Both the position numbers and the translations under genes were made by a program. Positions 4,291-18,964 of a stretch of DNA of 64,000 bases are shown here, one piece after another. Origin of the DNA: Polynucleobacter asymbioticus (GTDB taxonomy: Bacteria; Pseudomonadota; Gammaproteobacteria; Burkholderiales; Burkholderiaceae); assembly GCF_018687575.1 (NCBI RefSeq), contig NZ_CP061297.1:562813-626812 (forward strand), read 5' to 3'. Below the pieces are notes generated by a model. It searched no databases. It was not told the origin of the DNA and saw only the letters and a program-made list of their open reading frames with translations. The number at the start of each line of letters is the position of its first letter. The stretch's first letter is position 1.

Positions 4291-4616
4291 GTAAGACCTC
4301 TCGTACAGGCATTACGATGCCATCCCAGGCAAAAAAAGATTCCATCATTGAGATTCGGGCAATTGCTCAGCATGATATGGAGACGGGTTATCGGTATTCA
4401 GAGGATGGTAAACGGATACCTCGTGATCTCATTCGTTTGTTTACCTGCCAATACAACGGCGAAGAGGTCTTCAGGGCAGATTTTTATCCAGGCATCGGCG
4501 CTAATCCCCTCGTCATCTTTACAACCGTGGCAGTTGCCTCTGGCACGCTCGTGTTTAAGTGGGTAGGGGATAACGGTTATGAGGCCACCAATCAAGCGCA
4601 AATTACCGTCTCGTGA
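4287..4616 (+). CDS. soxZ: SoxZ, partner of the SoxY sulfur carrier
   Basis: The start chosen is the ATG in the ATGA overlap with soxY, preceded by GGAG; a further in-frame ATG at 4272 lies inside soxY and is less likely. The product is 109 residues and lacks a signal peptide, as expected because SoxZ is exported in complex with Tat-targeted SoxY. The sequence GIGANPLVIFTTVAVASGTLVFKWVGDNG is split here as GIGANP, then TLVFKWVGDNG, and is characteristic of SoxZ. Its last codons overlap the soxA GTG start. Role: scaffold that binds SoxY and presents its cysteine arm to the other Sox enzymes in the periplasm. Confidence 0.93.
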   Translation: MSKTSRTGITMPSQAKKDSIIEIRAIAQHDMETGYRYSEDGKRIPRDLIRLFTCQYNGEEVFRADFYPGIGANPLVIFTTVAVASGTLVFKWVGDNGYEATNQAQITVS

Positions 4617-5398
4617 ATCTTTTTGCTTTCTGTTGTCGTGCAATACCTGTGTTGGCAATTCTGCTTGGGGTCGATGCCAGCCTAGCGCTGGAGGCTTCAC
4701 AAGATGCTCGGCAATCTAGTTATGAGTTAATGACTGCAGAGAACCGGGCAATGCAAGATGACCCCAATTTAAATCCGGCCCTGTTTTGGGTGATGGATGG
4801 TCATAGCCTCTGGAAAGAAAAGGCTGGAAAGAAGGATGTGTCTTGTGCAACTTGCCACGGCGATTCTGGAAAAAAGATGACCGGTGTTGCGACACAGTTT
4901 CCTAAGATGATGAAGGGTAAGTTGCAGACCCTAGAGGGGCAAATCAATCAGTGCCGTGTTTCACAGCAAGCAGCCCCAGCTCTTGCCTATGAAAGCAAAG
5001 AGTTATTGGCGTTGACAACATTTGTGGCGACACAATCTAAGGGCTTGCCAATCGCCATTCAAGAAACGCCTCAGAATAAAAAAGACCTGCAACAAGGTCG
5101 TCAATTCTTCAATGAAAGAATGGGGCAACTCAATTTGTCTTGCGCCCAATGCCATCAAGATCGTGCTGGTCTAAAGCTGGGTGGAAGCCTTATTCCCCAG
5201 GGACATCCGACTGCATACCCCATTTATCGGATTGAATGGCAGACCATGGGATCCTTGCAAAGACGCCTACGCAACTGTATGAGTGGGGTGCGCGCTCAGC
5301 AGTTTGAGTATGGCTCGAAAGAGATGGCTCAGTTAGAGCTATTTTTGATGTGGCGAGCGAGGGGAATGCCCCTGGAAACTCCAGGGGTTCGCCCATAA
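4613..5398 (+). CDS. soxA: SoxA, dihaem cytochrome c subunit of the SoxAX complex
   Basis: 261 residues with a GTG start in a GTGA overlap with soxZ and a signal peptide ending near SLALE. It has two haem c motifs, CATCH at 78-82 and CAQCH at 177-181, so this is the dihaem form. Cys222 in the RNCMSGVRA segment is the conserved cysteine that becomes the active-site cysteine persulfide haem ligand. The protein catalyses oxidative attachment of thiosulfate to SoxY together with SoxX. In many operons soxB follows; here the next gene, purU, is convergent only 9 bp away, so the operon ends with soxA. Confidence 0.95.
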   Translation: MNLFAFCCRAIPVLAILLGVDASLALEASQDARQSSYELMTAENRAMQDDPNLNPALFWVMDGHSLWKEKAGKKDVSCATCHGDSGKKMTGVATQFPKMMKGKLQTLEGQINQCRVSQQAAPALAYESKELLALTTFVATQSKGLPIAIQETPQNKKDLQQGRQFFNERMGQLNLSCAQCHQDRAGLKLGGSLIPQGHPTAYPIYRIEWQTMGSLQRRLRNCMSGVRAQQFEYGSKEMAQLELFLMWRARGMPLETPGVRP

Positions 5399-5406
5399 AG
5401 TGCAAC

Positions 5407-6261
5407 TTAGTCTGAGAAGACTACCGAAGTTGCACCATTAATCAAGACGCGGTCATGCAGGTAGTAACGTAGGGCGCGAGATAGTACTGTACGCTCTAAG
5501 TCACGACCTTTGCGAACCAAGTCTTCAGGCGTGTCACCATGGGTAACACGAGTCACATCTTGCTCAATAATTGGGCCTTCATCCAAATCACTGGTAACAA
5601 AGTGCGCTGTAGCGCCAATCAACTTGATGCCGCGGGCATGAGCCTGATGGTAAGGTTTTGCGCCTTTAAAGCTTGGTAAGAAAGAGTGATGAACGTTGAT
5701 GCAGCGTCCAGATAGCTTGGTAGATAAGTCATCAGACAGAATTTGCATATAACGAGCCAAGATCACCATATCGACTTTTGAATCCGCAACGATTTCTAAT
5801 AGTTTGGCTTCTTGTGCTGGCTTAGTCTCCGGTGTTACGGGGAGGTGATAAAACGGAATATCGGAAAAATCAATGCTGGAGTACACCTCGCGTGGATGGT
5901 TAGAGACAATTCCACAAATGATCATTGGCAATTCACCGATACGCCAGCGGTAGAGAAGATCCACCAAGCAATGATCCAGCTTAGATGCCATGATCAATAC
6001 GCGCTTTAAATCCTTCACTGCACGTAAGTCCCAAGTCAGGTCAAAACGTTTAGCGATCTCTACAAAACCAGTCCTCAAAGTATTGCTATCAGCGCTGCAG
6101 CTAAAGCTCACGCGCATAAAGAAGCGTTTGGATGCTTTGTCATCAAATTGCTGAGCCTCTTCAATGTCACCACCTAATTCAAAGATGTAAGTTGAAACTG
6201 CGGCAACAATTCCTGGCCGATTAGGACAGGTAAGTGTGAGGTAGTAATTTTCTGTGGTCAT
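5407..6261 (-). CDS. purU: Formyltetrahydrofolate deformylase
   Basis: 284 residues, the usual length. An N-terminal ACT domain (about residues 1-85, starting with the typical [15 protein letters not shown]) is followed by the formyltransferase-type hydrolase domain. The active-site segment [20 protein letters not shown] carries the catalytic histidine, and [17 protein letters not shown] carries the catalytic aspartate. The enzyme hydrolyses 10-formyl-tetrahydrofolate to formate and tetrahydrofolate, balancing one-carbon pools. The formate produced could feed the formate dehydrogenase encoded further along this window (inference). It is convergent with soxA. Confidence 0.96.
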
Positions 6262-7205: not shown

Positions 7206-9665
7206 CTACTTAATATTCAGATCCAGTTGTCGAGTGATCTTTGCAGGTTTCATTTGCAGGGGAAGATATTCATTGCGAGCCCAAGGCCCACTCATATTGC
7301 GGTAGAGCTTATTCTGTACCCAGCCAGACTGCCCAGACTGATAAATAAAGAGAGACTGCTCTAGGTCGGAGAGGTCAAAGAGGGTTCTAAGACTGGGGGC
7401 CTGCTTGGTTTCAAAAGGATTTTCAGCTCTTAGAAGTTCAAGACGCCCTACGTTAATGCTGAAGCTATCTCCAGGAAAGGGTTGGGTCAAATTAAAGAGG
7501 CTACCAAGAAAGGGAACCTTACTGAGTGGACGGTGCTCAGAAACTGCCATGTGCGCATTACCCCACTTCCAATTTTTAGGATTATTGCCAAATTGCGCGC
7601 TCAGTTGCTCAAGTGCTTTATCAAAGGCGGCATTTGACGCATCAGCACAACTTTCGATCTGTTCAGTTTGCGGATCATTGCACCAAGGACTATTGGGATT
7701 TTGTAATTGCAGAATCAAGGGATGTCTAAAGTTACGTGCCCCATAATTTTCAGTGAATAAATAACCCAGACGTGAAAAGAGTTTGCGTGAGAGTTGATCG
7801 GCCCAGGCGTTGAATATGAGTGCACCAGTGCTATCGATTTTCATATCGCCATCAAAGTTACTGCTGAGTTCAATGGCCTGTTGTGCCAGGGGATGTTTTG
7901 ATTGGGCGGATTTAAATAATTCCAATAATGGTGTGGCGCCTAAGGAAAGCGTATCAGCCTGCATGGACTTCATTGAAGTCAGGTCGTGCACCGACTTGCC
8001 TTTAATTAATTCCACAATTCGGTCGTAACGGGTTGGCAAATCCCAGTCACCAGTAAGTGGGTTCGGATCGTTATTAGCCAATATTTTTTGATTGGCTGTG
8101 GCGATCCAGCTTGCGTCTGGGTTATTGCTGCTTGGGAGTTGGTCAAATGGGACGTACCCGACCCAGTCATATTGCTTCTCCCAGCCTAAGGCTGGCGCTA
8201 CGCCATACAAGCCTTGGTGCAAGGTGCGCTTAGGTGCGATACCAGCTGTTTGAAGTGAAATATTGCCATCGACATCTGCCATCACAACGTTTTGCATTGG
8301 GGCATAGTTTTTACGTAGTGCTTGCTTAAATGTATCCAAATCTTTGGCGTGATTCATATCCAGCAAGCCAGCAACAGACTGATTTTCAACATCCAAGGCA
8401 GTCCAGCGCAATGCCAAGGCAAAGCGATCGGTATCAATGGCTCGTTTTGCGCGCGCATAAGATTCAGAGATCACTGGACCATGTCGAGTCTCTTTCACTA
8501 AAAAGCGTACAGGGGGCTCGCCTTTGATGTCGATGATTTCTTGGCGCACTTTAAAAGATAGTGGGCCCTCTGGGCCTCGATATGTACCAGGATTTTTTGG
8601 ATCTAACTGCTCAATGTATAAATCCTGAACATCCGGACCTGTATTGGTAAAGCTCCAAGCAAATTTATCAGTGCGACCCAGTACTACCGCTGGAATACCG
8701 GGGAGGGTGGCACCAATGACATTGAGCCCTGGAGCCTCCAAGTGCGCCATATACCAAATTGCCGGGGCTGATAAGCCCAAGTGCGGGTCGTTCGCTAGTA
8801 AGGGCTTGCCAGAGGTGGTGAGCTTGCCGCTCAGCGCCCAATTGTTCGAGCCAATACCATCTTTGCCACCGGGCACTTCATTAATAGCAAGTTCTGTTGC
8901 AGGCAGTTTCTTAGACTTTTGATCTCGTGTGAGTGGATTGGGATTAAAGACATTGATATCCCGATACATCTTGGCAAAGTCAACATTGCTTACAGGTTCA
9001 CCTGGCGTATATGCTGGCATCACTTCCCATACTTGTTTAGTCGTTAAGAATTGCGAGAGCTCAAGGCGTTGTAATTCTTTATGCCAGTTACCGCCAAGAT
9101 CGAGCGCCATCATCAACATCCATGCCACGCTATCAGTAGGTGACCAATGCCCTGGCTTAGAGCCAGTTAAAAAGTATTCAACTGGTAGCGCCCAGCCCAA
9201 GTGAGTATTACCAGCATTGACGCCATCTGCATAGGATTGCAGTAATCGCTTAGTAGCAATAGGGTAGCGATCGAATTGTTTTTCAGCAGCATGTTTAATG
9301 CCTAGCGTGCGAATAAAACGATCAATTGCGACAGTTTCTTTGCCGAGGATTTCTGAGAGTCGCCCACTAGAGAGTCGACGGTTAATTTCCATTTGCCAGG
9401 AACGTTCACTTGCATGCAAATAGCCCAAAGCAAAGAGGGCATCAGTAGAGCTTTTTGCCTGAATATGGGGAATATCACTCTCATCAAAAGTGATCGCTAC
9501 TGAATCCCCTAGAGATTTGATGATCCGCTTGCCTGAGGGGTTGGTTTGAGCTGAAACTAAGTAGAAGACTCCAGCTGCGATGATCAGCAGCAATGTCCCA
9601 GAACTAAGCCAAAAGATGGCTTTAAATAGGGTTTTGAGACCTGGGCTTAGCGTGGGTATTTTCAT
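7206..9665 (-). CDS. Penicillin-acylase-family N-terminal nucleophile hydrolase
   Basis: 819 residues. An N-terminal membrane anchor or uncleaved signal occupies about residues 13-37. The alpha-chain has the family stretch SDIPHIQAKSSTDALFALGYLHASER (residues about 63-88, written here as SDIPHIQAK then GYLHASER). The autoprocessing site is the Gly-Ser at GIGSNNWALSG, so Ser273 is the expected nucleophile after self-cleavage. The family includes penicillin G acylases, cephalosporin acylases and acyl-homoserine-lactone acylases such as PvdQ, acting in the periplasm. Substrate cannot be assigned from sequence. The gene is divergent from tRNA-Leu and ends 70 bp from the next gene. Confidence 0.92.
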   Translation of the reverse strand: MKIPTLSPGLKTLFKAIFWLSSGTLLLIIAAGVFYLVSAQTNPSGKRIIKSLGDSVAITFDESDIPHIQAKSSTDALFALGYLHASERSWQMEINRRLSSGRLSEILGKETVAIDRFIRTLGIKHAAEKQFDRYPIATKRLLQSYADGVNAGNTHLGWALPVEYFLTGSKPGHWSPTDSVAWMLMMALDLGGNWHKELQRLELSQFLTTKQVWEVMPAYTPGEPVSNVDFAKMYRDINVFNPNPLTRDQKSKKLPATELAINEVPGGKDGIGSNNWALSGKLTTSGKPLLANDPHLGLSAPAIWYMAHLEAPGLNVIGATLPGIPAVVLGRTDKFAWSFTNTGPDVQDLYIEQLDPKNPGTYRGPEGPLSFKVRQEIIDIKGEPPVRFLVKETRHGPVISESYARAKRAIDTDRFALALRWTALDVENQSVAGLLDMNHAKDLDTFKQALRKNYAPMQNVVMADVDGNISLQTAGIAPKRTLHQGLYGVAPALGWEKQYDWVGYVPFDQLPSSNNPDASWIATANQKILANNDPNPLTGDWDLPTRYDRIVELIKGKSVHDLTSMKSMQADTLSLGATPLLELFKSAQSKHPLAQQAIELSSNFDGDMKIDSTGALIFNAWADQLSRKLFSRLGYLFTENYGARNFRHPLILQLQNPNSPWCNDPQTEQIESCADASNAAFDKALEQLSAQFGNNPKNWKWGNAHMAVSEHRPLSKVPFLGSLFNLTQPFPGDSFSINVGRLELLRAENPFETKQAPSLRTLFDLSDLEQSLFIYQSGQSGWVQNKLYRNMSGPWARNEYLPLQMKPAKITRQLDLNIK

Positions 9666-9799
9666 GGGAATAGTTTAGTGGGTTTGCCTTTGCTTCGAGC
9701 TCAGGCTTGATGAATGCAGGCTTCCCGCCTTCAATGACTCTCACATGCTAAAATTTTGCTTGTCTTGATTTATTTAGTACGGCTTTATTGCTCGTGCGA

Positions 9800-9888
9800 G
9801 CCCGAGTGGTGAAATCGGTAGACACAGCAGATTTAAAATCTGCCGACTCAAAAAAGTCGTGCCGGTTCGATTCCGGCCTCGGGCACCA
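9800..9888 (+). tRNA. tRNA-Leu (anticodon UAA)
   Basis: An 89-nt cloverleaf with encoded CCA. The acceptor stem GCCCGAG pairs with CTCGGGC. The anticodon stem-loop GCAGA-TTTAAAA-TCTGC gives anticodon UAA. A long variable arm (class II tRNA) and the T-arm with GGTTCGATTCC are present. Its last 14 nt recur at 18483-18496 (see the direct-repeat features), so this gene may be an integration site. Confidence 0.97.
9875..9888 (+). repeat. Candidate att half: 3' end of tRNA-Leu
   Basis: The 14 nt GGCCTCGGGCACCA form the 3' end of tRNA-Leu including CCA, and occur again exactly and in direct orientation at 18483-18496. The two copies flank the accessory region that holds the tolC-like and secreted-protein genes. 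A direct repeat of a tRNA 3' end is the usual mark of site-specific integration, but no integrase gene is present, so this is a candidate only. Confidence 0.45.
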
Positions 9889-10016
9889 TAGTAAAACCCT
9901 GTAAGCCAACAGGGAGTAGCGTAGCGGGTTTTCACCCTACCTTGATTTAGATAGAAATTAGATAGATCTAAATGAGTGGTAACCAAGCCTCCGTAAGAAA
10001 TAACCAGGAGACGCAT

Positions 10017-10061
10017 GTGAAATTCAAATCACTGCTTCTAGTGGTTTGTTTTATTGCTTAA
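10017..10061 (+). pseudogene. Interrupted signal-peptide-like start (possible gene remnant)
   Basis: A strong AGGAG ribosome site at 10006-10010 precedes GTG at 10017, followed by 14 codons encoding VKFKSLLLVVCFIA, which looks like the start of a signal peptide, and then TAA. The downstream small gene at 10121 is in another frame and has no ribosome site of its own. Stops occur in all three frames between 10059 and 10102, so more than one lesion would be needed to join them. It could be a decayed secreted-protein gene or a short leader peptide. Confidence 0.35.
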
Positions 10062-10120
10062 GAGGGACCAGCTTTTGAGCTGCTATTAGCTACATTTGCT
10101 AGAAAGCGCGATCCAACTAC

Positions 10121-10513
10121 ATGCCTCACTACACCACATTCGATGTCAATCCGGCAGTGCAGTCCACACAAGTCATGACCGTGCCACAGGCATCCGAGCC
10201 TAAGCCACCAACAGTATCTTATTCTCAAATAGATCAAGCACAAGCTCGAATAGATACCACATCTTCCCAAATTGAAGGCGCCAAAATTCAAGCTGGAACA
10301 CAAGGCGTTAATCAAGCCCAGCAATTGGCTGAGCAATTAAGGCAATCTGCGAGTTCAGTAGCGCAGGATATGAGCTCGATGATTAGTTCTACTAGAGCTG
10401 CCGCAGAAATGCCAAATGCTAATGATTCAGCAGCTACCGCGCAAAGCTACAACATGGATCAGTCTCCAAAAACTGGTATTGACGCAACACCACCGCTGCC
10501 AACAGCAAAGTAG
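10121..10513 (+). CDS. Unknown 130-residue Gln/Ala/Ser-rich protein
   Basis: I do not recognise this protein. It is polar, with a predicted helical, coiled-coil-like centre (IDQAQARIDTTSSQIEGAKI, then VNQAQQLAEQLRQSASS) and a Pro-rich tail ending PPLPTAK. It resembles the low-complexity secreted proteins downstream in composition but lacks their signal peptide. No convincing ribosome site precedes the ATG; the real start may be elsewhere, or the gene may have lost its 5' part (see the interrupted leader at 10017). It lies between tRNA-Leu and the tolC-like gene. Confidence 0.5.
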   Translation: MPHYTTFDVNPAVQSTQVMTVPQASEPKPPTVSYSQIDQAQARIDTTSSQIEGAKIQAGTQGVNQAQQLAEQLRQSASSVAQDMSSMISSTRAAAEMPNANDSAATAQSYNMDQSPKTGIDATPPLPTAK

Positions 10514-10678
10514 AGGGTAGTGGGGGCTCAACTTAGTTGCACCCCCTCCGTGTGGCAAGTTATCGGCTAAACCCGCTTGATAACGACTTCATTGCACGCC
10601 TGGCTATATGCCGGGCTCTAGCTTGTCGGTCATGCGTGATAATGGGCTTATTCCCAATTCGTTTAAATATGCTGATTT

Positions 10679-11905
10679 ATGCGCACACCATTAATTCGTT
10701 TATCCGCCGCACTTGGCGCATCGCTAATTTCCAGTGTTTCACTGGCTCAATCGTCGGCTTCTGGATTGAATGAGTACACTCCTATTCCCTTGGCGCAATA
10801 TCTGCAAGTTGTTAAAGAAAACAATGCAATTATTGGCAATAAGAGACTTGGCAAAGAAACAGCAGCTGCCATTAAAGAATCACTGGCCCTTTATCAATTT
10901 AGACCAAGTGTTAGTTATACAAAGGGCACTTTCTATCAACAGGTTCCTTACACTCCATATTCAACCCCTACATCCAATACCTATGGCGTCAACTTCAATT
11001 TAGAAGGCTGGGGGAAAAGGTCTGCTAGGTCTGAGTATGGTGATGCTGAAATTGGTAGAAGTGAAACTGATTACCAGGCTACCGAAGCCGACGTTCAAAC
11101 TGTTGCAACTCTGGGCTATGTAGATGCCTTAAGAAATCGTTTACTGTTTAACTCCTACGCTAAGGCAGCAAAAAGAATATCTACACTGCCAGCTAATGCA
11201 CAAACAAAAGATTCAGCTCAATTCTTACAGTATTACGAAAACGCAAGCGCTAAGGATCTGCAATTTACCTCCCTGAGCCTTTTGAACTACTCCGGTGGCG
11301 CCTTAAAGAATCTGCCGCTACCTATTGGTAACCTCAATGTTGCCCCACAGGCGTTTGATCCAGATAAGTTAATCAACCAAGCGCTGAATAGTCGCTCTGA
11401 CATATTGGCCTTGCAGGCAGCTATGAACTCAGCCGAGAAAAACATCAGCATGACCAAGGCTAATCGCAATTGGGATGTGATGCCCTATGTTTCATACACC
11501 ACAACACCTCAATATGATTCAAGTGGATATACCTACGCCCCGCAAAATGGTTTTTCTGCTGGCATACAAATACCGCTCCCAGTAAGTAACTTTTTACAAA
11601 ATGCCGATATTGTTCAGGCGGCCAATCAAAAGCTAGGCATTGAAATGCAGTTGCGTGATCTCAAGGAGCAGGTTCGTGTGCAGGTCATGCAGGCCTTGTT
11701 GCAGTACGAGTCTGCAAAGCAAATATTGGCGCAGGCGAATGATGGTTTGAATGGCGTTTCAAAAACTGCTAATCAATCAAGTGCAAAAGGCGTAATGGAT
11801 GTGCGCGACAAAGAGGGCGCTTTAATTGATGCCCAGACAAATCATGTCAAGGCCCTGGTTAATATTTGGCGTCAATCTGGAAACTACAGCATGCCTCCAC
11901 TATGA
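10679..11905 (+). CDS. TolC-like outer-membrane efflux/secretion channel (OEP family)
   Basis: 408 residues with a signal peptide ending SVSLAQS. The organisation is that of outer-membrane efflux proteins: two halves of long amphipathic helices separated by beta-strand segments (NTYGVNFNLEGWGKRSARSE... and GFSAGIQIPLPVSNFLQNAD are short parts of these), with the helix RDLKEQVRVQVMQALLQYESA in the second half. It is somewhat shorter than TolC. Function in the family: an outer-membrane channel docking to an inner-membrane pump. No membrane-fusion protein or ABC/RND pump is encoded nearby. Its stop overlaps the next gene (ATGA), so it is coupled to the unknown exported protein and the secreted proteins downstream. 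Confidence 0.82.
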   Translation: MRTPLIRLSAALGASLISSVSLAQSSASGLNEYTPIPLAQYLQVVKENNAIIGNKRLGKETAAAIKESLALYQFRPSVSYTKGTFYQQVPYTPYSTPTSNTYGVNFNLEGWGKRSARSEYGDAEIGRSETDYQATEADVQTVATLGYVDALRNRLLFNSYAKAAKRISTLPANAQTKDSAQFLQYYENASAKDLQFTSLSLLNYSGGALKNLPLPIGNLNVAPQAFDPDKLINQALNSRSDILALQAAMNSAEKNISMTKANRNWDVMPYVSYTTTPQYDSSGYTYAPQNGFSAGIQIPLPVSNFLQNADIVQAANQKLGIEMQLRDLKEQVRVQVMQALLQYESAKQILAQANDGLNGVSKTANQSSAKGVMDVRDKEGALIDAQTNHVKALVNIWRQSGNYSMPPL

Positions 11906-13317
11906 GAAAACTTATAGTTCAATTTCTCATAGTGGCCTTGTTCTCGTTAAATAGTTATGCGGGCCCATTGGTCGATAGAAATCGCCCAGACATCAGGCCA
12001 GGGCAGAGAGGATCGATTGCACAGAATGCGCTGGGATCGAACCATGATCAGTACTCCATCCTAAATCCCGGCTCCAATCAGTCTGTCTTTGTGCGCAACA
12101 ACATTCTCTTGCAGCAGCAGTATGGAAATAATGCCAATACAAACGGTTACCTGACTTTCAATCCACAAAGCTCTTTGCTTGGCAGTGGAGCTACCGCCTC
12201 CCTTGATGCAATGGCAAAACATTTATTGGAAACAAATGGTGGCAATGCGCAGGCCAATAGAGTTACTCCTTCCCCATTTGCATCAAAGGTTGCAAAAAGC
12301 CAAACACAAGGGATTATTTTTTTGACTCAGGACTCTCAATCCTATGTAAGAGCATCGAAGGAGTCGTTACCTTTCCCAGAGATCCAAAATCTTCCTGGGC
12401 TGACTATGATCCCATATATTTTTGCTTCGATTGCGCTTATTGACACGGGATTGTTCGCGCCAATTGGTGCGTCTATGTTGGTTGCTAGTGCTATAAGTAT
12501 TTTGGAGTCGGGCAATATTCAAAGAGCAAAAATTATCCAGAAAAAACTAAGCTCTCCTGAGCAGGATAAGGCTCAATTGGAGGCGGTGAATCTGGTTGCA
12601 AAGGATATGGCTGACAAGGGGATTCCTTCTTCAGAGGCAAAAAAAATTGCACCTGCATTAATTGCAATTGCATTAGTTTTAAATTTAGAGCAAGCTAAAT
12701 TGGGTCAAGGTGATAAAGAGGGTATTTATACGAGTTTGCAAACGTCATGCCCTGATTGCTCAATTGAGGAGGTAAAAAGTACCTTCTTAATTGCCCAAAA
12801 CTTAGTCAGCAAGAATCCTGCGATGTGGCTTAGGAGTGACCAGTTAGAGGCTGCCGTCTCCCAGGTATTCAGTTCAGATTATGGTGTCGTTGCCCCAGTA
12901 GTTTCAGATGAGTCTGGAAAAAGAAACTTGTCTAATGTTGTATTGGCGAGACCATCATCAAAAAATATACAGAACGAAATCCCATCAGAGAAGCCGCCCA
13001 ATATTAAGTCAAGCATGCAGAGTGGGTATAAGGCTCGGCATTCTGATGTCGGAGATCAAGGCATAAGTACTGCATTTGTTTATGCAGTTAATGCCATTGA
13101 AATTGCGGTTGGTAAGGCTACTGACGATCCAGTATTAGTTGGAGCTGGCGTCGTAGGCATCCTAACGACAGCTGGTTCAAGCCCTAATCAGGAGAGAGTT
13201 GCCGTAAGCGGTGGCGCCAATACTTCTATAGACCCAGTCGCCACCACAAATTCACTGACTACACCCATTCCACCGCAACAGAACTCTAACGAATCCACGC
13301 CTAGGGTAAGTAAATGA
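11902..13317 (+). CDS. Unknown 471-residue exported protein, coupled to the TolC-like gene
   Basis: Not recognised. The start chosen is the ATG in the ATGA overlap with the tolC-like gene; it gives a good signal peptide (MRKLIVQFLIVALFSLNSYA). After a polar, Asn/Gln-rich N-terminal region there is a hydrophobic segment at about residues 155-185 (MIPYIFASIALIDTGLFAP, then a second short hydrophobic stretch), then a helical region with a CPDC pair (TSCPDCSIEEV) and a Ser/Pro/Asn-rich tail. A periplasmic or envelope-spanning role between the inner membrane and the TolC-like channel is possible from context but is not shown. The stop overlaps the next gene (ATGA). Confidence 0.75.
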   Translation: MRKLIVQFLIVALFSLNSYAGPLVDRNRPDIRPGQRGSIAQNALGSNHDQYSILNPGSNQSVFVRNNILLQQQYGNNANTNGYLTFNPQSSLLGSGATASLDAMAKHLLETNGGNAQANRVTPSPFASKVAKSQTQGIIFLTQDSQSYVRASKESLPFPEIQNLPGLTMIPYIFASIALIDTGLFAPIGASMLVASAISILESGNIQRAKIIQKKLSSPEQDKAQLEAVNLVAKDMADKGIPSSEAKKIAPALIAIALVLNLEQAKLGQGDKEGIYTSLQTSCPDCSIEEVKSTFLIAQNLVSKNPAMWLRSDQLEAAVSQVFSSDYGVVAPVVSDESGKRNLSNVVLARPSSKNIQNEIPSEKPPNIKSSMQSGYKARHSDVGDQGISTAFVYAVNAIEIAVGKATDDPVLVGAGVVGILTTAGSSPNQERVAVSGGANTSIDPVATTNSLTTPIPPQQNSNESTPRVSK

Positions 13318-14225
13318 AAACAAACCTCTTAATCACCTCATTGGGCTTAATAGCAACATCTGTTTATGCTCAGCCATCAGTACCCTCTGTTGGTGTGCCA
13401 CCTCCAACTGTCAGAGCAGAGATGCCCGGCCAAGGTATGCCATCTATGCCCCAGCCACAAATGACACCAACAATTCCAAATCATGGGGGACGTCCTCCAC
13501 TTCCTTCTCAAGCCCTCCCTCAACCAATGCCACAAATGAATCAAAGTGGTCCACAGCCTGCTGTCGGAGCTACTGGCGGCACTGGTGGTAATGGTGGAAA
13601 TGGCGGCTTAATAATTGGCACTGGTGGTACTGGTGGTGCTGGTGCAACACCAAAGTCTGCGAATGATGTAAAGGCTCCAGCTAGTGTTGGCGTTAGCTTA
13701 AACGAAACGCAGGCTAGGGCTGAGGCTCAGAAGGCTAAGAGTGAGGCTCAGGATGTGGCTCAGAAGGCTCTGGCTAGGGCTGGTGCAAGTGCTGGCACTG
13801 GTGTTCATGCTGGTAATGTTGGTGCTACTGGTGTTACAACACCAATGCCTCCATTGCCCGGCAATGATGCAAAAGGTCCAACTAGTGTTGGTGATACTGG
13901 TCTTGCAACACTACTGGCCAGAGGAGTAGGGCCGACGCCTTTGAAAAATGACGATGTTGGAACTGGTTTTATTGTCACGAACCCTCCCCTGATCACGACT
14001 GTTGTCGTGAGTTTTACGGTTTCTAGGATAACTTCAAAGATAGCTGAGGCTGCGGCTAAGGCTCAGAAGCTTGAAAAAGCAGCGGAAGGTCCAACTCCTG
14101 TTGGCGCTACTGGTGTTTCAACACCAATGCCTCCAATTCCTGGCAATGATGCAAAAGGCCCAACTAGTGTTGGTGTTGACATTGACTATAACGATATAGT
14201 TATGAGATTGGTTCCGCAAATATGA
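13314..14225 (+). CDS. Secreted Pro/Gly-rich protein 1 of a paralogous array
   Basis: 303 residues. The signal peptide MKTNLLITSLGLIATSVYA-QPS is nearly the same as in five neighbouring genes. A Pro/Met/Gln-rich region follows, then a Gly-rich block (GATGGTGGNGGNGG, about residues 85-105), an Ala/Lys/Glu helical part, and three copies of an N(D)-x-K-x-P-x-SVG motif (KAPASVG, KGPTSVG twice). The last KGPTSVG is followed directly by a short tail VDIDYNDIVMRLVPQI. Start overlaps the stop of the 471-residue gene and stop overlaps the next start, placing it in the tolC-like operon. No known domain is apparent; low-complexity composition makes homology calls unsafe. Confidence 0.75.
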   Translation: MKTNLLITSLGLIATSVYAQPSVPSVGVPPPTVRAEMPGQGMPSMPQPQMTPTIPNHGGRPPLPSQALPQPMPQMNQSGPQPAVGATGGTGGNGGNGGLIIGTGGTGGAGATPKSANDVKAPASVGVSLNETQARAEAQKAKSEAQDVAQKALARAGASAGTGVHAGNVGATGVTTPMPPLPGNDAKGPTSVGDTGLATLLARGVGPTPLKNDDVGTGFIVTNPPLITTVVVSFTVSRITSKIAEAAAKAQKLEKAAEGPTPVGATGVSTPMPPIPGNDAKGPTSVGVDIDYNDIVMRLVPQI

Positions 14226-15154
14226 TGCAAAAACTCCTACTAGTGCTGGGGCTGGTCGCCTCGTTGGGCATGTTGGCAACATCTGCATATGCTCAGCCAT
14301 CAATGTCTGCTGGTGCATCACCATCAGTTAATAGGCCTGAAGTCTCTCGTCAGCTGGCCCCATCAATGCCAAGCCCATCAGGGTCAATGGGTAGTCCACA
14401 GCCTGCTGCTGGCGCTACTAGTGGTGAGGGTGTTGCTAAACCCTCCATCGTTGCCCCGAGTCTCGGTGAAATTAATGGCAGGATTCCACCTTTGCCTCCG
14501 CTTCCACCGACATCAACACCAGCAGTTAAGCTTGTAAATCCTCGCACTGGTGAAGTAGCCAGTGAAATCAAGGCATCCGGAGAAGGAAAGGGTGCAATTA
14601 AGGCGGCAGCTGCAGGGGCGTCTGGTTCACAAGCTAATGCAAGGCCACCTTTGTCCGATAGCCAGGCTGGCAATAGTGGGGTGTCGCTAAGTGATAAGAA
14701 AGATATTCAGAGTGTTGGTTCAACTCAATCTAAATCACAAGGCATGCTTTCTCGTCCCGCATATATTATTCCTATGACACCCGGCAAAGTTGTTTTTTCA
14801 ATAGCTGGTGCTGATGGCTTATTTCACGGCCCCGGCGTATTGCATTCCAATAATGAAGTTGGTGCTAGCGCCCCGAGCCAAGAGAAGATTCAACAGCGAC
14901 AAGAGAAGGTTGTGCAGCTACAGCAGGAGAGAGGGGTAGTTCAAGAGGAGAGAGCGCTGATTGAGCAGAAGAGAGCGCCTATTGAGCAGAAGAGAGCGCC
15001 GCGTGAGCAACATAGAGAGGAAAAAAAAGAAGAGATTGAGTGGAATATGCAGATGTACGGTCGTCCATTTGACATTGACATATTTACAACTTGGGCTGTA
15101 TGTATTCATCCTCCGGGGCCTATTGATTGGGATACTTTGTACCACGATCAATGA
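14222..15154 (+). CDS. Secreted Pro/Gly-rich protein 2 with coiled-coil segment
   Basis: 310 residues, fourth gene of the overlapping run (4-nt overlap with its upstream neighbour). The signal peptide ends ATSAYAQPS and the mature start is SAGASPSVNRPEVSRQ, as in its paralogues. After a Pro/Ala/Gly-rich middle there is a strongly charged helix at about residues 220-270 with short repeats of EQKRAP (IEQKRAPIEQKRAPREQ), likely a coiled coil. The C-terminus is different again: WAVCIHPPGPIDWDTLYHDQ, with a single cysteine. Function unknown; shared N-terminus with a variable C-terminus is the family pattern. Confidence 0.72.
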   Translation: MMQKLLLVLGLVASLGMLATSAYAQPSMSAGASPSVNRPEVSRQLAPSMPSPSGSMGSPQPAAGATSGEGVAKPSIVAPSLGEINGRIPPLPPLPPTSTPAVKLVNPRTGEVASEIKASGEGKGAIKAAAAGASGSQANARPPLSDSQAGNSGVSLSDKKDIQSVGSTQSKSQGMLSRPAYIIPMTPGKVVFSIAGADGLFHGPGVLHSNNEVGASAPSQEKIQQRQEKVVQLQQERGVVQEERALIEQKRAPIEQKRAPREQHREEKKEEIEWNMQMYGRPFDIDIFTTWAVCIHPPGPIDWDTLYHDQ

Positions 15155-15260
15155 GTCAAAATAGTTTTGCAAGAGCATCTTTTTTAACGCAGGAGTTGCA
15201 GACCCCTCATCAATAGCATTGCTAGCTGCAGTAATTTAATAAGTCTTACTAGAAAATCAA

Positions 15261-15911
15261 ATGAAATCAAAACTCCTAATCACCTCATTGAGCCTAATAG
15301 CAACATCTGCTTATGCTCAGCCATCAATACCTGCTGGTGTTTCACCACCAGTCAATAGACCTGAAGTGTCTCGTGGGGTAGAGCCATCAATGACTCAATC
15401 AGCTATGCCAAGACCAATGCAGTCCAATCAAGTTTCAAGCAGCGTAGGCGCAGTGCCGGTCACCCCTCAGACGATGAATAAGCTTGAAGGTGCTACCCAA
15501 AAAGCGCAAAGCGCACAGCAGGTGTACGCCAAAAAAGTTAATGAGGTAAAGAGAGGTATAGAAAGCAAAGGGTATGAAGTTACTACGGTTGTGCAGCGTG
15601 GTGGAGGTCCTAAATCCCATGCAGGTAGTTATTACATAGTAGGGCCAGATGGAGGCTACGTTGAAGTTAGCACCAGTACCAAAGATGATGTGATTGGGAA
15701 TACTGTGACAAAAACCATTGAGGTTTATAAGCCAGGCCAAAGTAATGGCGAAGGTGTAGTCATTGAGTTAGCCCATCCTGATGCAAAGGTTGCAATACTC
15801 GCTGAGTCAGATGTGACTCCAAGCGCTGAATCGGTAAAGGCTGGTTTAAAGGTTATATCTAGAGAGCAAGAAAACATTGTAAGAGTGGTTACTCCACCCA
15901 TAACGCAATAA
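15261..15911 (+). CDS. Secreted protein 3 of the paralogous array, with a small globular domain
   Basis: 216 residues. The signal peptide MKSKLLITSLSLIATSAYA and mature start QPSIPAGVSPPVNRPEVSRG match its neighbours. Unlike them, the rest is not Gly-rich: an Ala/Gln/Lys helix (residues about 70-100) leads into what looks like a folded alpha/beta domain (GYEVTTVVQRGGGPKSHAGS, YYIVGPDGGYVEV, TVTKTIEVY, VVIELAHPDAKVAIL). It has no Gly-rich block and no KAPTSVG motif. No known domain recognised. It is preceded by a 106-bp gap, so it may have its own promoter. Confidence 0.72.
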   Translation: MKSKLLITSLSLIATSAYAQPSIPAGVSPPVNRPEVSRGVEPSMTQSAMPRPMQSNQVSSSVGAVPVTPQTMNKLEGATQKAQSAQQVYAKKVNEVKRGIESKGYEVTTVVQRGGGPKSHAGSYYIVGPDGGYVEVSTSTKDDVIGNTVTKTIEVYKPGQSNGEGVVIELAHPDAKVAILAESDVTPSAESVKAGLKVISREQENIVRVVTPPITQ

Positions 15912-15947
15912 TACTTTGAGCGAATCCTTAAGGAATAGGGCAAAAAA

Positions 15948-16322
15948 ATGAAAACAAAAATCTTAATCAGCTCTTTGAGCCTAATAGCAGCATCTGTTAA
16001 TGCTCAGCCATCAATACCTGCTGGTGCATCACCAGTTAATAAGCCTGAAGTGTCTCGTCCAGCAACACCATCTATACCTCAACCAGCAATGCAAAGACCA
16101 GCGCCACAGCCTGCTGTTGGAGCTACTGGTGGAAATGGTGGGAACAGCGGCTTGATGATTGGTAACGGTGGTAATGGTGGTAATAGTGCGAGACCAGCCC
16201 CACCATCTACTATCTCCAGCGGTCCATTACCTGCGAATAATGCAAAAGCTCCAACTAGTGTTGGCGACGATGTCGTACCCCCACCTCCACTATATCCACC
16301 ACCTCCACCACCACCTTATTAG
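15948..16322 (+). CDS. Secreted Pro/Gly-rich protein 4, polyproline tail
   Basis: 124 residues. Signal MKTKILISSLSLIAASVNA, then QPSIPAGASPVNKPEVSRPA, a PQPAVGATGGNGGNSG block and the linker PLPANNAKAPTSVG, after which the tail is a short acidic turn and a polyproline run (DDVVPPPPLYPPPPPPPY). The leader CTTAAGGAATAGGGCAAAAAA before the ATG (split: CTTAAGGAATAGG then GCAAAAAA) is shared with the paralogue at 17112. An 84-bp stretch is identical to that paralogue, showing recent duplication or gene conversion. Confidence 0.7.
   Translation: MKTKILISSLSLIAASVNAQPSIPAGASPVNKPEVSRPATPSIPQPAMQRPAPQPAVGATGGNGGNSGLMIGNGGNGGNSARPAPPSTISSGPLPANNAKAPTSVGDDVVPPPPLYPPPPPPPY
16181..16264 (+). repeat. 84-bp exact direct repeat, copy 1
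   Basis: Identical to 17351-17434. It encodes the segment from NSARPAPP through the ANNAKAPTSVG linker of two paralogous secreted proteins. The identity ends right at the SVG codons, after which the two tails are unrelated. Confidence 0.93.
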
Positions 16323-16516
16323 GGGAAAAGCATTTTTGGTTTAGGTGCCGTCCAAACCTTATTTTCAAGGTCAATTTGCTTCCAAGTTGCTGAGCTTACT
16401 GAGTCAGAGTGAACGGCAGTAAGGATTAAGAATTCCATTGCTTTGAAAGCCTCTCGGTTGAAAGCAAATATTTCACTGGGAATAGCTTGATAAGATAAGG
16501 TAATTACAGGAAAAAA

Positions 16517-16996
16517 ATGAAAACAAAAATCTTAATCAGCTCTTTGAGTCTAATTGCAGCATCTGCATATGCTCAGCCATCAATACCTGCTGGTGTATCA
16601 CCACCAGTTAATAGACCTGAAGTTTCTCGTCCAGCAATGCAATCTATGCCTCAAGTGGGATCAGCGGCTAAACCGCTCTCAGGGCCCGCTCTTAATGCCG
16701 CGGTTCCTGTAATGGAAAGTAGGATTGTTCCTTTTACAGGTAATGACGCAACTAACTCCGTGAGCGCAGGAGCCTCCGGTTTAGTTGGTGGCGTTAGTGG
16801 TAGTGGTGGGGATGGTAGTCGCGGCGGAAATGTTACAACACCAAAACCTCCGTCAACTATGTACAGCGGAGTTGGCCCATTGCCTGCGAATGATGCAAAA
16901 GCTCCAACTAGTGTTGGTGCTACTGAAAGAGAATACGCGCTTTTCATGGGGGCTGAGATAGTATTGGAGCAAAAAATAATAAATGTTGTTGATTAA
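16517..16996 (+). CDS. Secreted Pro/Gly-rich protein 5 of the paralogous array
   Basis: 159 residues. Signal MKTKILISSLSLIAASAYA and mature start QPSIPAGVSPPVNRPEVSRP. The middle differs from its neighbours (IVPFTGNDATNSVSAGASG, then a Gly/Ser-rich GGVSGSGGDGSRGG), and the linker PLPANDAKAPTSVG is followed by a unique tail, ATEREYALFMGAEIVLEQ then KIINVVD, predicted helical. A GGAAAAAA leader precedes the ATG. A hairpin terminator lies 55 bp downstream. The 194-bp gap before it (16323-16516) holds no gene or clear signal that I can see. Confidence 0.7.
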   Translation: MKTKILISSLSLIAASAYAQPSIPAGVSPPVNRPEVSRPAMQSMPQVGSAAKPLSGPALNAAVPVMESRIVPFTGNDATNSVSAGASGLVGGVSGSGGDGSRGGNVTTPKPPSTMYSGVGPLPANDAKAPTSVGATEREYALFMGAEIVLEQKIINVVD

Positions 16997-17050
16997 GCTG
17001 TTGATACGCAGCTTACTTACACAGGCGATCACTTTACAGGGGATTAAGAG

Positions 17051-17070
17051 ACCTGCTTCGGCAGGTTTTA
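17051..17070 (+). terminator. Hairpin terminator after secreted protein 5
   Basis: Stem ACCTGC / GCAGGT with a TTCG loop followed by TTTAA. The same GAGACCTGCTTCGGCAGGTT sequence occurs after the next paralogue with a longer T-run, suggesting gene and terminator were duplicated together. Confidence 0.7.
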
Positions 17071-17111
17071 ATACAAATCTAATTGTCAAAACTTAAGGAA
17101 TAGGAGAAAAA

Positions 17112-17540
17112 ATGAAATCAAAACTTTTAATCGCTTCATTGGGCCTAGTGGCAGCATCAGCTTATGCTCAGCCATCAATACCAGCTGGTGGCGCGTCACC
17201 ATCAGTCAATAGACCTGAAGTATCGCCAACATCTATGCCTCAACCAGCAATGCAAAGACCAGCGCCACAGCCTGCTGTTGGAGCGACTGGCGGTAATGGT
17301 GGTAACGGTGGTAATGGGGGCTTGATGATTGGTAACGGTGGTAATGGCGGTAATAGTGCGAGACCAGCCCCACCATCTACTATCTCCAGCGGTCCATTAC
17401 CTGCGAATAATGCAAAAGCTCCAACTAGTGTTGGGTCTATGAGTGAGGCTCAGGCTGAGTCTTTGAAGGAAATTCAGACCCAGCAGCAATTGGCACTCCA
17501 ATCATTGAGTTTGGCAAATGAAACTGAGCAAGGAAAATGA
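17112..17540 (+). CDS. Secreted Pro/Gly-rich protein 6, QTQQQLA-type tail
   Basis: 142 residues. Signal MKSKLLIASLGLVAASAYA, mature start QPSIPAGGASPSVNRPEVSP, a PQPAVGATGGNGGNGGNGG block and the ANNAKAPTSVG linker. The tail is a helix, ESLKEIQTQQQLALQSLSLA followed by NETEQGK. The same QTQQQLAxQSLSxAN tail ends the oppositely oriented gene at 17760-18236, so this tail is a module used by two proteins with different bodies. Leader AAGGAATAGGAG before the ATG. Followed by a strong hairpin terminator. Confidence 0.72.
   Translation: MKSKLLIASLGLVAASAYAQPSIPAGGASPSVNRPEVSPTSMPQPAMQRPAPQPAVGATGGNGGNGGNGGLMIGNGGNGGNSARPAPPSTISSGPLPANNAKAPTSVGSMSEAQAESLKEIQTQQQLALQSLSLANETEQGK
17351..17434 (+). 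repeat. 84-bp exact direct repeat, copy 2
   Basis: Identical to 16181-16264; codes for the conserved linker that ends in KAPTSVG, with different sequence on its 3' side. Confidence 0.93.
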
Positions 17541-17593
17541 TGCAGTATCAACGGTGTTAATAGTTGCTCAAGTGCCAAGAGAAATAATGAGAG

Positions 17594-17616
17594 ACCTGCT
17601 TCGGCAGGTTTTTTTG
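17594..17616 (+). terminator. Rho-independent terminator after secreted protein 6
   Basis: Stem ACCTGC / GCAGGT, TTCG loop, then a run of seven T. It ends the rightward array of secreted proteins. Confidence 0.88.
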
Positions 17617-17759: not shown

Positions 17760-18236
17760 CTACTTATCAGTAGCAGTGATTACGTTGGAGCTAGAACTAT
17801 TTGCAATCGATAACGACTGAATGGCAAGCTGTTGCTGGGTTTGCAGCGCTTTTAATTTAGTGGATTCTTCCTCCATATTGGCATCAATTAAAGATCCCAC
17901 GCCAACATCCTTGACTTCACTTAGAGTCGTAGCTTTCGTAGAGGTGGTGTTTGGATTTTGCTGGGGCGTACTAGAGGCTGCGGAAGATGTTGTTGAATAT
18001 GATGCTGGCTTGTAAGACTCCAATTGCTCTTTTTTTTGTGTGGGTGCGGGTGCATAAGTTCCGGCAGCATTATTTTGTTTATTGGGTAGAGAGGTTTGCC
18101 CAATATTATTTTGGCTTGCTGATCCAGGGGTTGAGCTAATGGCGCCCATGGAGCTACTTGGATGCAAAGGTTGGGCGTAACTCAAAGGTGAGAGGATGGC
18201 TATTGATAATGAGTGGATTAAAAATATTTTCTTCAT
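17760..18236 (-). CDS. Secreted Ser/Thr/Gln-rich protein sharing the QTQQQLA tail
   Basis: 158 residues with signal peptide MKKIFLIHSLSIAILSPLSYA-QP. The body is Ser/Thr/Pro/Asn-rich with no Gly block. A short VKDVGVGS segment stands where the paralogues have the PTSVG linker, and the C-terminal part KLKALQTQQQLAIQSLSIAN closely matches the tail of the protein encoded at 17112-17540 on the other strand. It thus belongs to the same functional group but with a diverged body. Function unknown. Confidence 0.7.
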   Translation of the reverse strand: MKKIFLIHSLSIAILSPLSYAQPLHPSSSMGAISSTPGSASQNNIGQTSLPNKQNNAAGTYAPAPTQKKEQLESYKPASYSTTSSAASSTPQQNPNTTSTKATTLSEVKDVGVGSLIDANMEEESTKLKALQTQQQLAIQSLSIANSSSSNVITATDK

Positions 18237-18283
18237 GGCATCTCCCAGAGTTTTCGCTTAAGTTTAATCTGACTATAACCAAT

Positions 18284-18505
18284 CAAAATACCACTGTCAA
18301 TGCTTGGTCCCAAGGTAGCGGAGCCACCATCCCAGCTGCCAGTCAGTCTGAATATCTGGCACAGAAAGGAAATGCTATAGATGGCTTAGGGTATCTTGAT
18401 TTTGTTGCATGGGCTAAATCGCTGTGTACAATGGGTCAATGTGTATATGGCTTTGAGGGCCGAATCAGTCTGGGGATATGCTGGCCTCGGGCACCAATCG
18501 ATTGA
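18284..18505 (+). pseudogene. Open segment, possible 3' remnant of a gene
   Basis: This segment is open in one frame up to a TGA at 18503-18505 and has a plausible protein-like composition (ATIPAASQSEYLAQKGNAID, then LDFVAWAKSLCTMGQCVYGF). The only ATG that would start it lies inside the opposite-strand gene, so if real it is a 5'-truncated remnant. It contains the second copy of the tRNA-Leu 3' end. It may equally be non-coding. Confidence 0.3.
18483..18496 (+). repeat. Candidate att half: second copy of the tRNA-Leu 3' end
   Basis: Exact 14-nt copy of 9875-9888 in direct orientation, 8,608 bp away. It marks the right-hand limit of the array of secreted-protein genes. No other tRNA structure surrounds it. 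Confidence 0.45.
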
Positions 18506-18517
18506 TTTCAGGCATTC

Positions 18518-18964
18518 TTGAAATACCTCCATCTCCTTTTCTTGCTTTTATTTGCCACCCCCAGTTTGGCTGTGGAACCCCTGGTGTTTATTTGCGAGCG
18601 TTCAGAAAAGAATTACACCGAAACCTATGAGTTCAAAGTCGTTCCCGCTTCAAAAAATCAGAAAGCTAAAGTCTTTTTTGATAATCGAGATTTAGATCGG
18701 TCGAATGAGTTGGGCAAACAAACCGTGAAGAATGTGTTGATCACCGAACCTACAGTCCTTGTGTCAATAGAGGCGCATTTCCCACCAGAGATTTTTGATG
18801 GCGTGCAATATGGAGCTGGTTTGGTTACCACGGCGATTGTGATTAATCGCTCAACTGGTCAGCTTAGAAAAGCGGAGACCGTAAAAGGTGGAATTCTCTC
18901 TGCAACCCTTGGTGAGGGTACGAAGACTTATCAAGAGCAATGCGCTGCTACTAACAAGCCTTAA
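18518..18964 (+). CDS. Unknown small exported protein
   Basis: 148 residues from a TTG start preceded by CAGG; signal peptide about residues 1-18 (HLLFLLLFATPSLAVEP). The mature part (FICERSEKNYTETYEFKVVP, VLVSIEAHFPPEIFDG, GLVTTAIVINRSTGQL) looks like a small beta-rich domain with two cysteines, one near each end. I do not recognise the family. It is convergent with exbD, overlapping it by 4 bp. It lies just outside the candidate island. Confidence 0.6.
   Translation: MKYLHLLFLLLFATPSLAVEPLVFICERSEKNYTETYEFKVVPASKNQKAKVFFDNRDLDRSNELGKQTVKNVLITEPTVLVSIEAHFPPEIFDGVQYGAGLVTTAIVINRSTGQLRKAETVKGGILSATLGEGTKTYQEQCAATNKP

Follow-up and report, generated by a model that had tools for sequence, protein, structure and literature searches.

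Polynucleobacter asymbioticus belongs to a group of bacteria that lives in freshwater. A stretch of 64,000 nt from its genome (RefSeq assembly GCF_018687575.1, contig NZ_CP061297.1, positions 562,813 to 626,812), which we call the window and whose numbering is used for its features, carries a module borne on a small genomic islet: a TolC-like outer-membrane protein with a shortened tip, here named TOLX, together with an exported low-complexity partner and, as in two further species, an array of exported proteins. The module is real, and richer than the initial annotation of this DNA described; its function we infer. The reading that we favor, and to which we would give not quite an even chance, is that of a two-step export cassette for disordered proteins, which would pass first through Sec and then through TOLX, with a cargo array that recombines. 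That related species pair an odd channel with floppy exported proteins suggests a dedicated export route. A dedicated system for export and display, or release, had in fact been proposed from the outset: its linkage, coupling and modularity, together with purifying selection, are shown by the sequences, whereas export through the channel, display and release are putative.

TOLX, a TolC-like protein with shortened tips

TOLX (10679..11905, forward strand) matches the OEP profile PF02321 at 67 bits, against a cut-off of 22, and ten out of ten other TOLX proteins score above that cut-off. Homologs are present in 25 of the 186 genomes of our genus set (one genome per species), that is, in about one in seven. 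The 399 genomes of the order set yield three with TOLX (E up to 1e-30), each of them from the same genus, and the 13 loci found in a genome contig collection belong to Polynucleobacter or to betaproteobacterial, Burkholderiaceae or Burkholderiales bins. No relatives were detected in plasmids or in viral contigs (the latter searched by patterns), and nothing matched in a PDB sequence search at E 0.001. In the searches made, then, TOLX is a subfamily of OEP found only in Polynucleobacter and betaproteobacterial bins. A tree of 24 sequences divides it into three groups: the first contains G000 (the window's own genome, a single contig of 1.84 Mb), G152, G172, G192, G213, G105 and G187; the second consists of G110 and G133, which sit on long branches and whose joining is unsure; the third contains the 15 others.

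In ordinary OEPs the tip of the periplasmic hairpin docks pump adaptors. When four TOLX proteins are aligned with four other OEPs of the window's genome, the TOLX sequences prove shorter by about 15 residues in the tip of the first hairpin and by about 7 in that of the second. The same shortfall is evident from the profile: the PF02321 match ends at position 150 (of 187) in the window's TOLX and at 131–176 in ten others, compared with 183–187 in ordinary OEPs (ten repeats in the five other OEPs of the window's genome). TOLX thus appears not to have a full-length hairpin with an adaptor-docking tip.

The gene directly behind TOLX

At all 25 loci examined (26 are known in all, that of G012 lying outside the 25) the gene directly 3′ of TOLX encodes a small low-complexity protein, separated from TOLX by −20 to +27 nt; where several frames lay downstream, the script that chose the partner preferred those bearing a signal. 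A crude signal rule is passed by 24 of the 25 partners, with the remaining one (L055) just below the threshold. The combined fraction of Pro, Gly, Ala, Ser, Thr, Asn and Gln is 0.53–0.83 in partners, as against 0.32–0.53 in ten genes of the window, including TOLX, and Cys is absent after residue 22 in 22 of 25. In most of the first group TOLX and partner overlap by 4 nt.

To the eye, partners of the three TOLX groups look different. Eight first-group partners can be aligned and share S-x-x-Q-G-x-x-F near the end; a single-sequence search with the partner head at E up to 0.001 found only G000, G152, G172, G192 and G169, while the partners of G213, G187 and G105 were placed by alignment (23–29% identity). 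Most third-group partners end in a G-P-T/S-D...Y...P-T motif (again by eye); those rich in Ala and Lys are presumably comparable to periplasm-spanning stalks such as TolA. The partners of G110 and G133 are rich in Pro and Gly, and repeated Pro/Gly-rich exported proteins of silk- or elastin-like appearance adjoin TOLX at L059 (G133; oriented 11064-11711) and L054 (G110; oriented 10503-11153).

In the window the partner is the product of 471 residues encoded at 11902..13317 (forward strand), which on the evidence of its sequence is a TOLX partner carrying an insert of about 300 residues: the head extends over about 11902-12360 and the insert over about 12361-13280. The open frame reaches back to a TTG at 11866 (483 residues); the ATG at 11902 is used here. 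Its head is 75% identical to a 173-residue protein of G152, and PRVSK ends both. The insert has no match in the other 185 genomes of the genus, in phages or in plasmids; searches with the full gene matched nothing else, either in 101 genomes or, when peptide patterns were used, in the genome contig collection. The head alone, used as query, finds four more genomes of the genus.

The constancy of this arrangement bears on a rather different explanation: that the low-complexity partner and the array proteins are periplasmic spacers, plugs or adaptors of TOLX that take the place of the usual adaptor, small molecules being the real substrate. The position of the partner directly behind TOLX at every locus examined, the 4-nt overlap in most of the first group, the presumed likeness of Ala/Lys-rich partners to TolA and the gap that the missing tip leaves for a periplasmic part would fit such a role. 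A docking part should, however, have a common sequence, and none is apparent by eye among the partners of the three groups; moreover, six divergent array proteins in one genome exceed the needs of an adaptor, and the mature tails swapped between species (see below) speak against a periplasmic part. We regard this explanation as unlikely, albeit the least so of the three alternatives that we consider.

An array of exported proteins built from shared modules

Behind the partner lie six genes for exported proteins, all on the forward strand: array proteins 1 (13314..14225; type B head, three linkers and the tail VDIDYNDIVMRLVPQI), 2 (14222..15154; type A mature head and a signal peptide starting within a linker repeat read out of frame), 3 (15261..15911; type A head and an unrelated, longer mature part), 4 (15948..16322; polyproline tail), 5 (16517..16996; ATEREYALF tail) and 6 (17112..17540; QTQQQLALQSLSLAN tail). 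As first reported, the genes at 10679-11905, 11902-13317, 13314-14225 and 14222-15154 are joined by three 4-nt overlaps, and four more exported-protein genes follow downstream. By eye and by the crude hydropathy rule the array proteins have a hydrophobic N-terminus and an A-x-A site, after which the mature protein would begin with QP (by eye). The six heads align in register through ungapped DNA repeats, of which there are six 101-nt copies, the other five 67–83% identical to the reference copy.

Nearly identical signal peptides had been ascribed to all six proteins. In an ungapped comparison of the first 19 codons, expressed as protein identity, this holds for five of them (63–89% mutual identity) and fails for the protein encoded at 14222, which is only 21–26% identical to those five. 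The mature start QPS...VNRPEVSR is nevertheless common to it too, along with no more than the end of the signal. The linkers and tails originally assigned to array proteins 1, 4, 5 and 6 are right; that the tails are unrelated to anything else is not so for two of them. The tail of array protein 6 matches the C-terminus of the protein encoded on the minus strand at 17760-18236 (19 of 29 aligned positions shared), and that of array protein 1 is met again in two other species. No DNA match to the polyproline or the ATEREYALF tail was seen elsewhere in the compared loci.

Homologs of the array (with the 17112 protein as query) occur in 3 of the 186 genomes, namely G000, G152 and G172. The co-occurrence anticipated for the TolC-like gene, the 471-residue gene and the array is observed across the genus: genomes with the partner head (5/186) and those with the array (3/186) all fall among the 25 with TOLX, each count including the window's genome. 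So too is variation in the tails, the three array species possessing different tail sets. The heads of these species are of three types, A, B and C (by eye), and modules are shared between them: the tail VDIDYND(I/M)VMRLVP(Q/H)I closes one protein in each of the three, every time behind a different head, and its DNA is 96% identical over 51 nt.

Identical 23-nt stretches consisting of a hairpin plus a run of T lie at 17047-17069 and 17590-17612, behind array genes 5 and 6. By eye they resemble terminators, and they are not listed by the scan that gave the promoter-like site described below. A duplication may have copied the last array gene together with its 23-nt stretch.

A linker repeat read in two frames

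The linker is encoded by a 28-nt repeat, found in the forward orientation as NDVKAPASVG (13663..13690), NDAKGPTSVG (13864..13891 and 14146..14173), NNAKAPTSVG (16237..16264 and 17407..17434) and NDAKAPTSVG (16890..16917). A further copy (14222..14249) is read in another frame: array gene 1 stops within it, and array protein 2 takes from it both its start codon and the opening stretch of its signal peptide. The pattern has seven matches in the window and none in 100 shuffles, although, because it admits both linker and start forms, this comparison is partly circular. By the motif used, no in-frame linker is present in the genes at 14222 and 15261.

After each gene with a VDIDYND tail, in all three species, the next gene overlaps by 4 nt and starts MMQKL(L/P)LVLGL. 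This start agrees at 24 of 27 nt with the best linker repeat, read in another frame; for nine normal starts the identity is 48–58%. The homology extends, with a small gap, into the end of the upstream gene. In this out-of-frame comparison none of 300 simple shuffles scores as high as five of the six linkers; the sixth (13663) does not stand out in this way. Because both the start and the upstream end match the linker repeat, the junction between the genes at 13314 and 14222 is itself a copy of the linker whose other frames give a stop, a start and a hydrophobic segment. Out-of-frame junctions of this type are kept in three species. Recombination of array modules around the linker repeat is the best reading of these patterns. 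PTSVG had also been put forward as a possible cleavage site; we saw nothing in support of this, and the motif behaves like a component of a DNA repeat that recombines.

Might the array be simply a by-product of such recombination, with little selected function, each tail being whatever happens to follow the linker repeat? Reading of the linker in two frames, the two tails that lack DNA matches and the signs of decay described below (a remnant of a cargo gene and a broken TOLX) would all fit. Against it, ratios of nonsynonymous to synonymous change (dN/dS) of 0.19–0.71 were obtained for heads and shared modules, values that are rough because the heads are short and partly paralogous, and the out-of-frame junction and VDIDYND tail have both been kept in three species, the latter with the high DNA identity already noted. 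We consider the by-product explanation very improbable. For TOLX itself dN/dS is 0.07–0.09 (three of six pairs, the others being saturated) and for the partner it is 0.20 and 0.29 (two of six pairs); together these estimates point to purifying selection on the cassette.

Insertion at tRNA-Leu(UAA)

The islet measures 8.6 kb and is flanked by tRNA-Leu(UAA) (9800..9888, forward strand; identified with ARAGORN), its insertion site, and by a core gene at 18518. The final 14 nt of the tRNA gene, GGCCTCGGGCACCA (9875..9888), form the left direct repeat; an exact copy, the right direct repeat, lies at 18483..18496 (both forward strand) and ends 21 nt before the core gene. In 40 randomised sequences the longest match was at most 10 nt. 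The 21-nt spacing equals that between the tRNA end and the core gene in genomes where the site is empty: of 14 relatives, taken from the genomes that best match the tRNA and its upstream flank, 12 have the core gene beginning 21 nt after the tRNA (for example, tRNA end at 752, gene start at 774). G152, which has its own TOLX cluster elsewhere, has an empty site at tRNA-Leu(UAA). Since it carries the tRNA 3′-end as a direct repeat on either side and relatives have empty sites, the islet has the character of a tRNA-site genomic islet. No integrase was recognised among its ten proteins with Pfam or PHROGs.

The remaining two relatives, G172 and G108, hold different genes at this position (L126, 902-8201, and L132, 792-2240, respectively), which marks the tRNA-Leu site as a hot spot for small islets. 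Other clusters also lie near tRNA genes: the TOLX clusters of G152 and G172 near tRNA-Leu(CAG), and two further array genes of G152 near tRNA-Met. At these three tRNA-adjacent clusters a search for att-like repeats gave no support, the longest being 8–10 nt against a shuffled maximum of 11. In eight third-group genomes (L052, L053, L055, L057, L058, L060, L061 and L062) the TOLX pair stands beside the tRNA-Asp/Glu/Ala genes, near a tRNA 3′ end, and at L051 (G224) a 406-residue protein resembling a phage-type integrase, by eye only, is encoded at 11900-13120, directly behind the TOLX pair.

The islet bears two genes beyond those originally described: a seventh exported gene (17760-18236, minus strand) and, upstream of TOLX, a broken cargo gene. 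The latter (10017..10513, forward strand) comprises a signal-peptide start, a stop and then an open frame of 130 residues. Over 38 nt at its start it shows 84% identity to the beginning of a G213 cargo gene, and it is then cut short by the stop; part of the 130-residue frame resembles a cargo gene of G169.

The seventh gene (17760..18236, minus strand) encodes an exported protein with a flagellin C-terminal region (PF00700, 28.1 bits against a cut-off of 23). Its residues 82-153 match the flagellin model NF009329 at 4e-16, short of the cut-off set there for whole proteins, and the protein is the sole Flagellin_C match in the window's genome at E up to 0.1. The gene is absent from the other genomes of the genus (186 searched). 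A promoter-like site upstream of it (18272..18300, minus strand) amounts to an 11/12 consensus match only, and such sites are fewer than in shuffles of the region.

Neighboring genes

The ten proteins of the islet yield two families above the Pfam cut-offs, OEP and Flagellin_C. With NCBIfam nothing exceeded a cut-off, the strong partial flagellin match of the 17760 gene being the only one of its kind, and with PHROGs the ten proteins gave weak matches only (E 0.01 or worse). In agreement with the initial annotation, no pump, adaptor or fusion-protein gene was recognised on the islet. Around TOLX genes more widely, no adaptor, ABC or RND family was seen among the 25 shown of 98 matched Pfam families (70 of the 125 listed neighbor proteins).

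An MFS-type transporter gene is located a few genes upstream of TOLX at L045 (G152; 12483-13802) and at L047 (G172; 4401-5627). TOLX may be linked to the MFS transporter in those genomes.

A proposed route of export

If the module is a two-step export cassette, the partner and the array proteins would cross the inner membrane by Sec and be cut after A-x-A. TOLX would form the usual trimer, lacking the canonical periplasmic tip, and would carry unfolded Pro/Gly/Ala-rich chains out of the periplasm to the cell exterior, with no pump or adaptor dedicated to the task. Directly downstream, the partner gene would encode either an accessory (a periplasmic cap or recruiter) or the founding cargo. In the array, the constant heads would act as a shared export tag and the tails as a variable payload. 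Array diversity would stem from recombination at repeated modules, chiefly the NDAKAPTSVG linker, out-of-frame use of which would make two coupled genes at one repeat, and the cassette would sit as an islet at different tRNA genes in different species. In favor of this reading we count the partner behind TOLX at all 25 loci examined, the restriction of array and partner head to genomes with TOLX, the shortened tips, the dN/dS estimates, the lack of adaptor, ABC or RND among the 25 neighbor families shown, and the tails and out-of-frame linker found across species. A bolder and more specific version holds that export is pump-free at the outer membrane: the tip-shortened OEP and its exported partner would themselves release intrinsically disordered proteins, and the cargo array would be diversified by a repeat whose second frame makes signal peptides and hence new coupled genes. 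We judge that version improbable as it stands.

Several observations weigh against the export cassette. The profile matches of G110 and G133 (ending at 170 and 176) approach the normal, and in G169 TOLX is broken by stop codons while the partner remains open (L048, around 9125-10350). The assignment of signal peptides rests on inspection by eye and on a crude hydropathy rule. Partners of the first group are only mildly low in complexity (0.53–0.60; G187 0.79). A stricter automatic test on 34 loci counts in favor of the cassette, being passed by 18 of 21 TOLX pairs, compared with 25 of 206 other close same-strand pairs, but its cut-off was chosen after the partner survey and the loci are related, so that the count is descriptive and not independent; of the 25 control pairs that passed, nine are cargo genes of TOLX clusters, twelve are tonB orthologs by position and four are others. 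Mature starts differ in G192, G213 and G105, heads being alike in three species only, and because of this difference a universal head tag is unsupported. The two array genes of G152 at tRNA-Met are ∼195 kb from its TOLX.

The remaining difficulties concern the pump, the case against which consists solely of its absence at the locus and the shortened tip. TOLX may use a housekeeping pump, given that the genome contains five other OEPs. In addition, MFS_1 is the most frequent neighbor family (4 of 70 proteins), and an MFS gene lies a few genes from TOLX in G152, G172, G192 and G133, within the same gene block in the first two. On this alternative TOLX would be an efflux channel of the ordinary kind, paired with a housekeeping pump (the other OEPs make pumps likely) or with a nearby-encoded MFS, and the array would hitch-hike on the islet in an unrelated role; the distance between TOLX and array genes in G152 and the presence of other genes on islets at the tRNA-Leu site in G172 and G108 would be in keeping with it. 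Yet no MFS gene is present on the window's islet, the partner is linked to TOLX at all 25 loci examined, in several genomic places, the array occurs only in genomes with TOLX (3/3), and TOLX falls short of the profile at the tip. An ordinary efflux channel therefore seems to us unlikely, a little more so than the periplasmic-adaptor explanation.

Comparison with known systems

Should the export reading be correct, a TolC-type protein could by itself let unfolded exported proteins out of small-genome bacteria, and the cassette would provide a natural set of heads and tails with which to probe what such a channel recognises. The linker repeat, one frame of which encodes a protein linker and another a signal peptide, would be a concrete case of the birth of a coupled exported gene. 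No such cassette was described in the titles or abstract openings of the literature searched.

One of the closest parallels is the Aat system (AatPABCD) for dispersin/CexE, in which the TolC homolog AatA passes a small Sec-exported protein (PMC7943197). The two are alike in a two-step route by Sec and then a TolC-like protein, which for the cassette is a proposal. Aat, however, has an adaptor (AatB), ABC parts (AatP and AatC) and an acyltransferase (AatD), none of which was recognised on the islet, the part of the genome searched. Its cargo starts with an acylated glycine, whereas array proteins start QP by eye; the 471-residue protein would start with Gly and its G152 counterpart with Ser. 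MacAB-TolC similarly exports heat-stable enterotoxin after a Sec-dependent first stage to the periplasm, with exit through an OEP (PMC8277102, PMC7943197). That route needs MacA and MacB, genes for which were not recognised on the islet; in TOLX, moreover, the tip with which an adaptor would make contact is shortened.

Curli secretion (CsgG, CsgE; the N22 tag of CsgA) combines Sec export, a disordered cargo, a mature N-terminal tag and entropic release through a pore (PMC7217966). The resemblance to the proposed cassette is one of idea only, CsgG being an unrelated pore, and the ten islet proteins, to which the search was confined, have no Pfam match to CsgG, CsgE or CsgF. Type 1 secretion systems and tripartite pumps have an adaptor and a pump at the locus, in contrast to the islet, where none was recognised. 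Genomic islets at tRNA genes share with it the insertion at the 3′-end, the direct repeat and the empty sites, and differ in that no integrase was recognised here. Finally, with respect to the OEP (outer membrane factor) family defined by PF02321, TOLX is a member by profile, distinguished from the others by its shortened hairpin tips and by the exported partner gene that accompanies it at the 25 loci examined.

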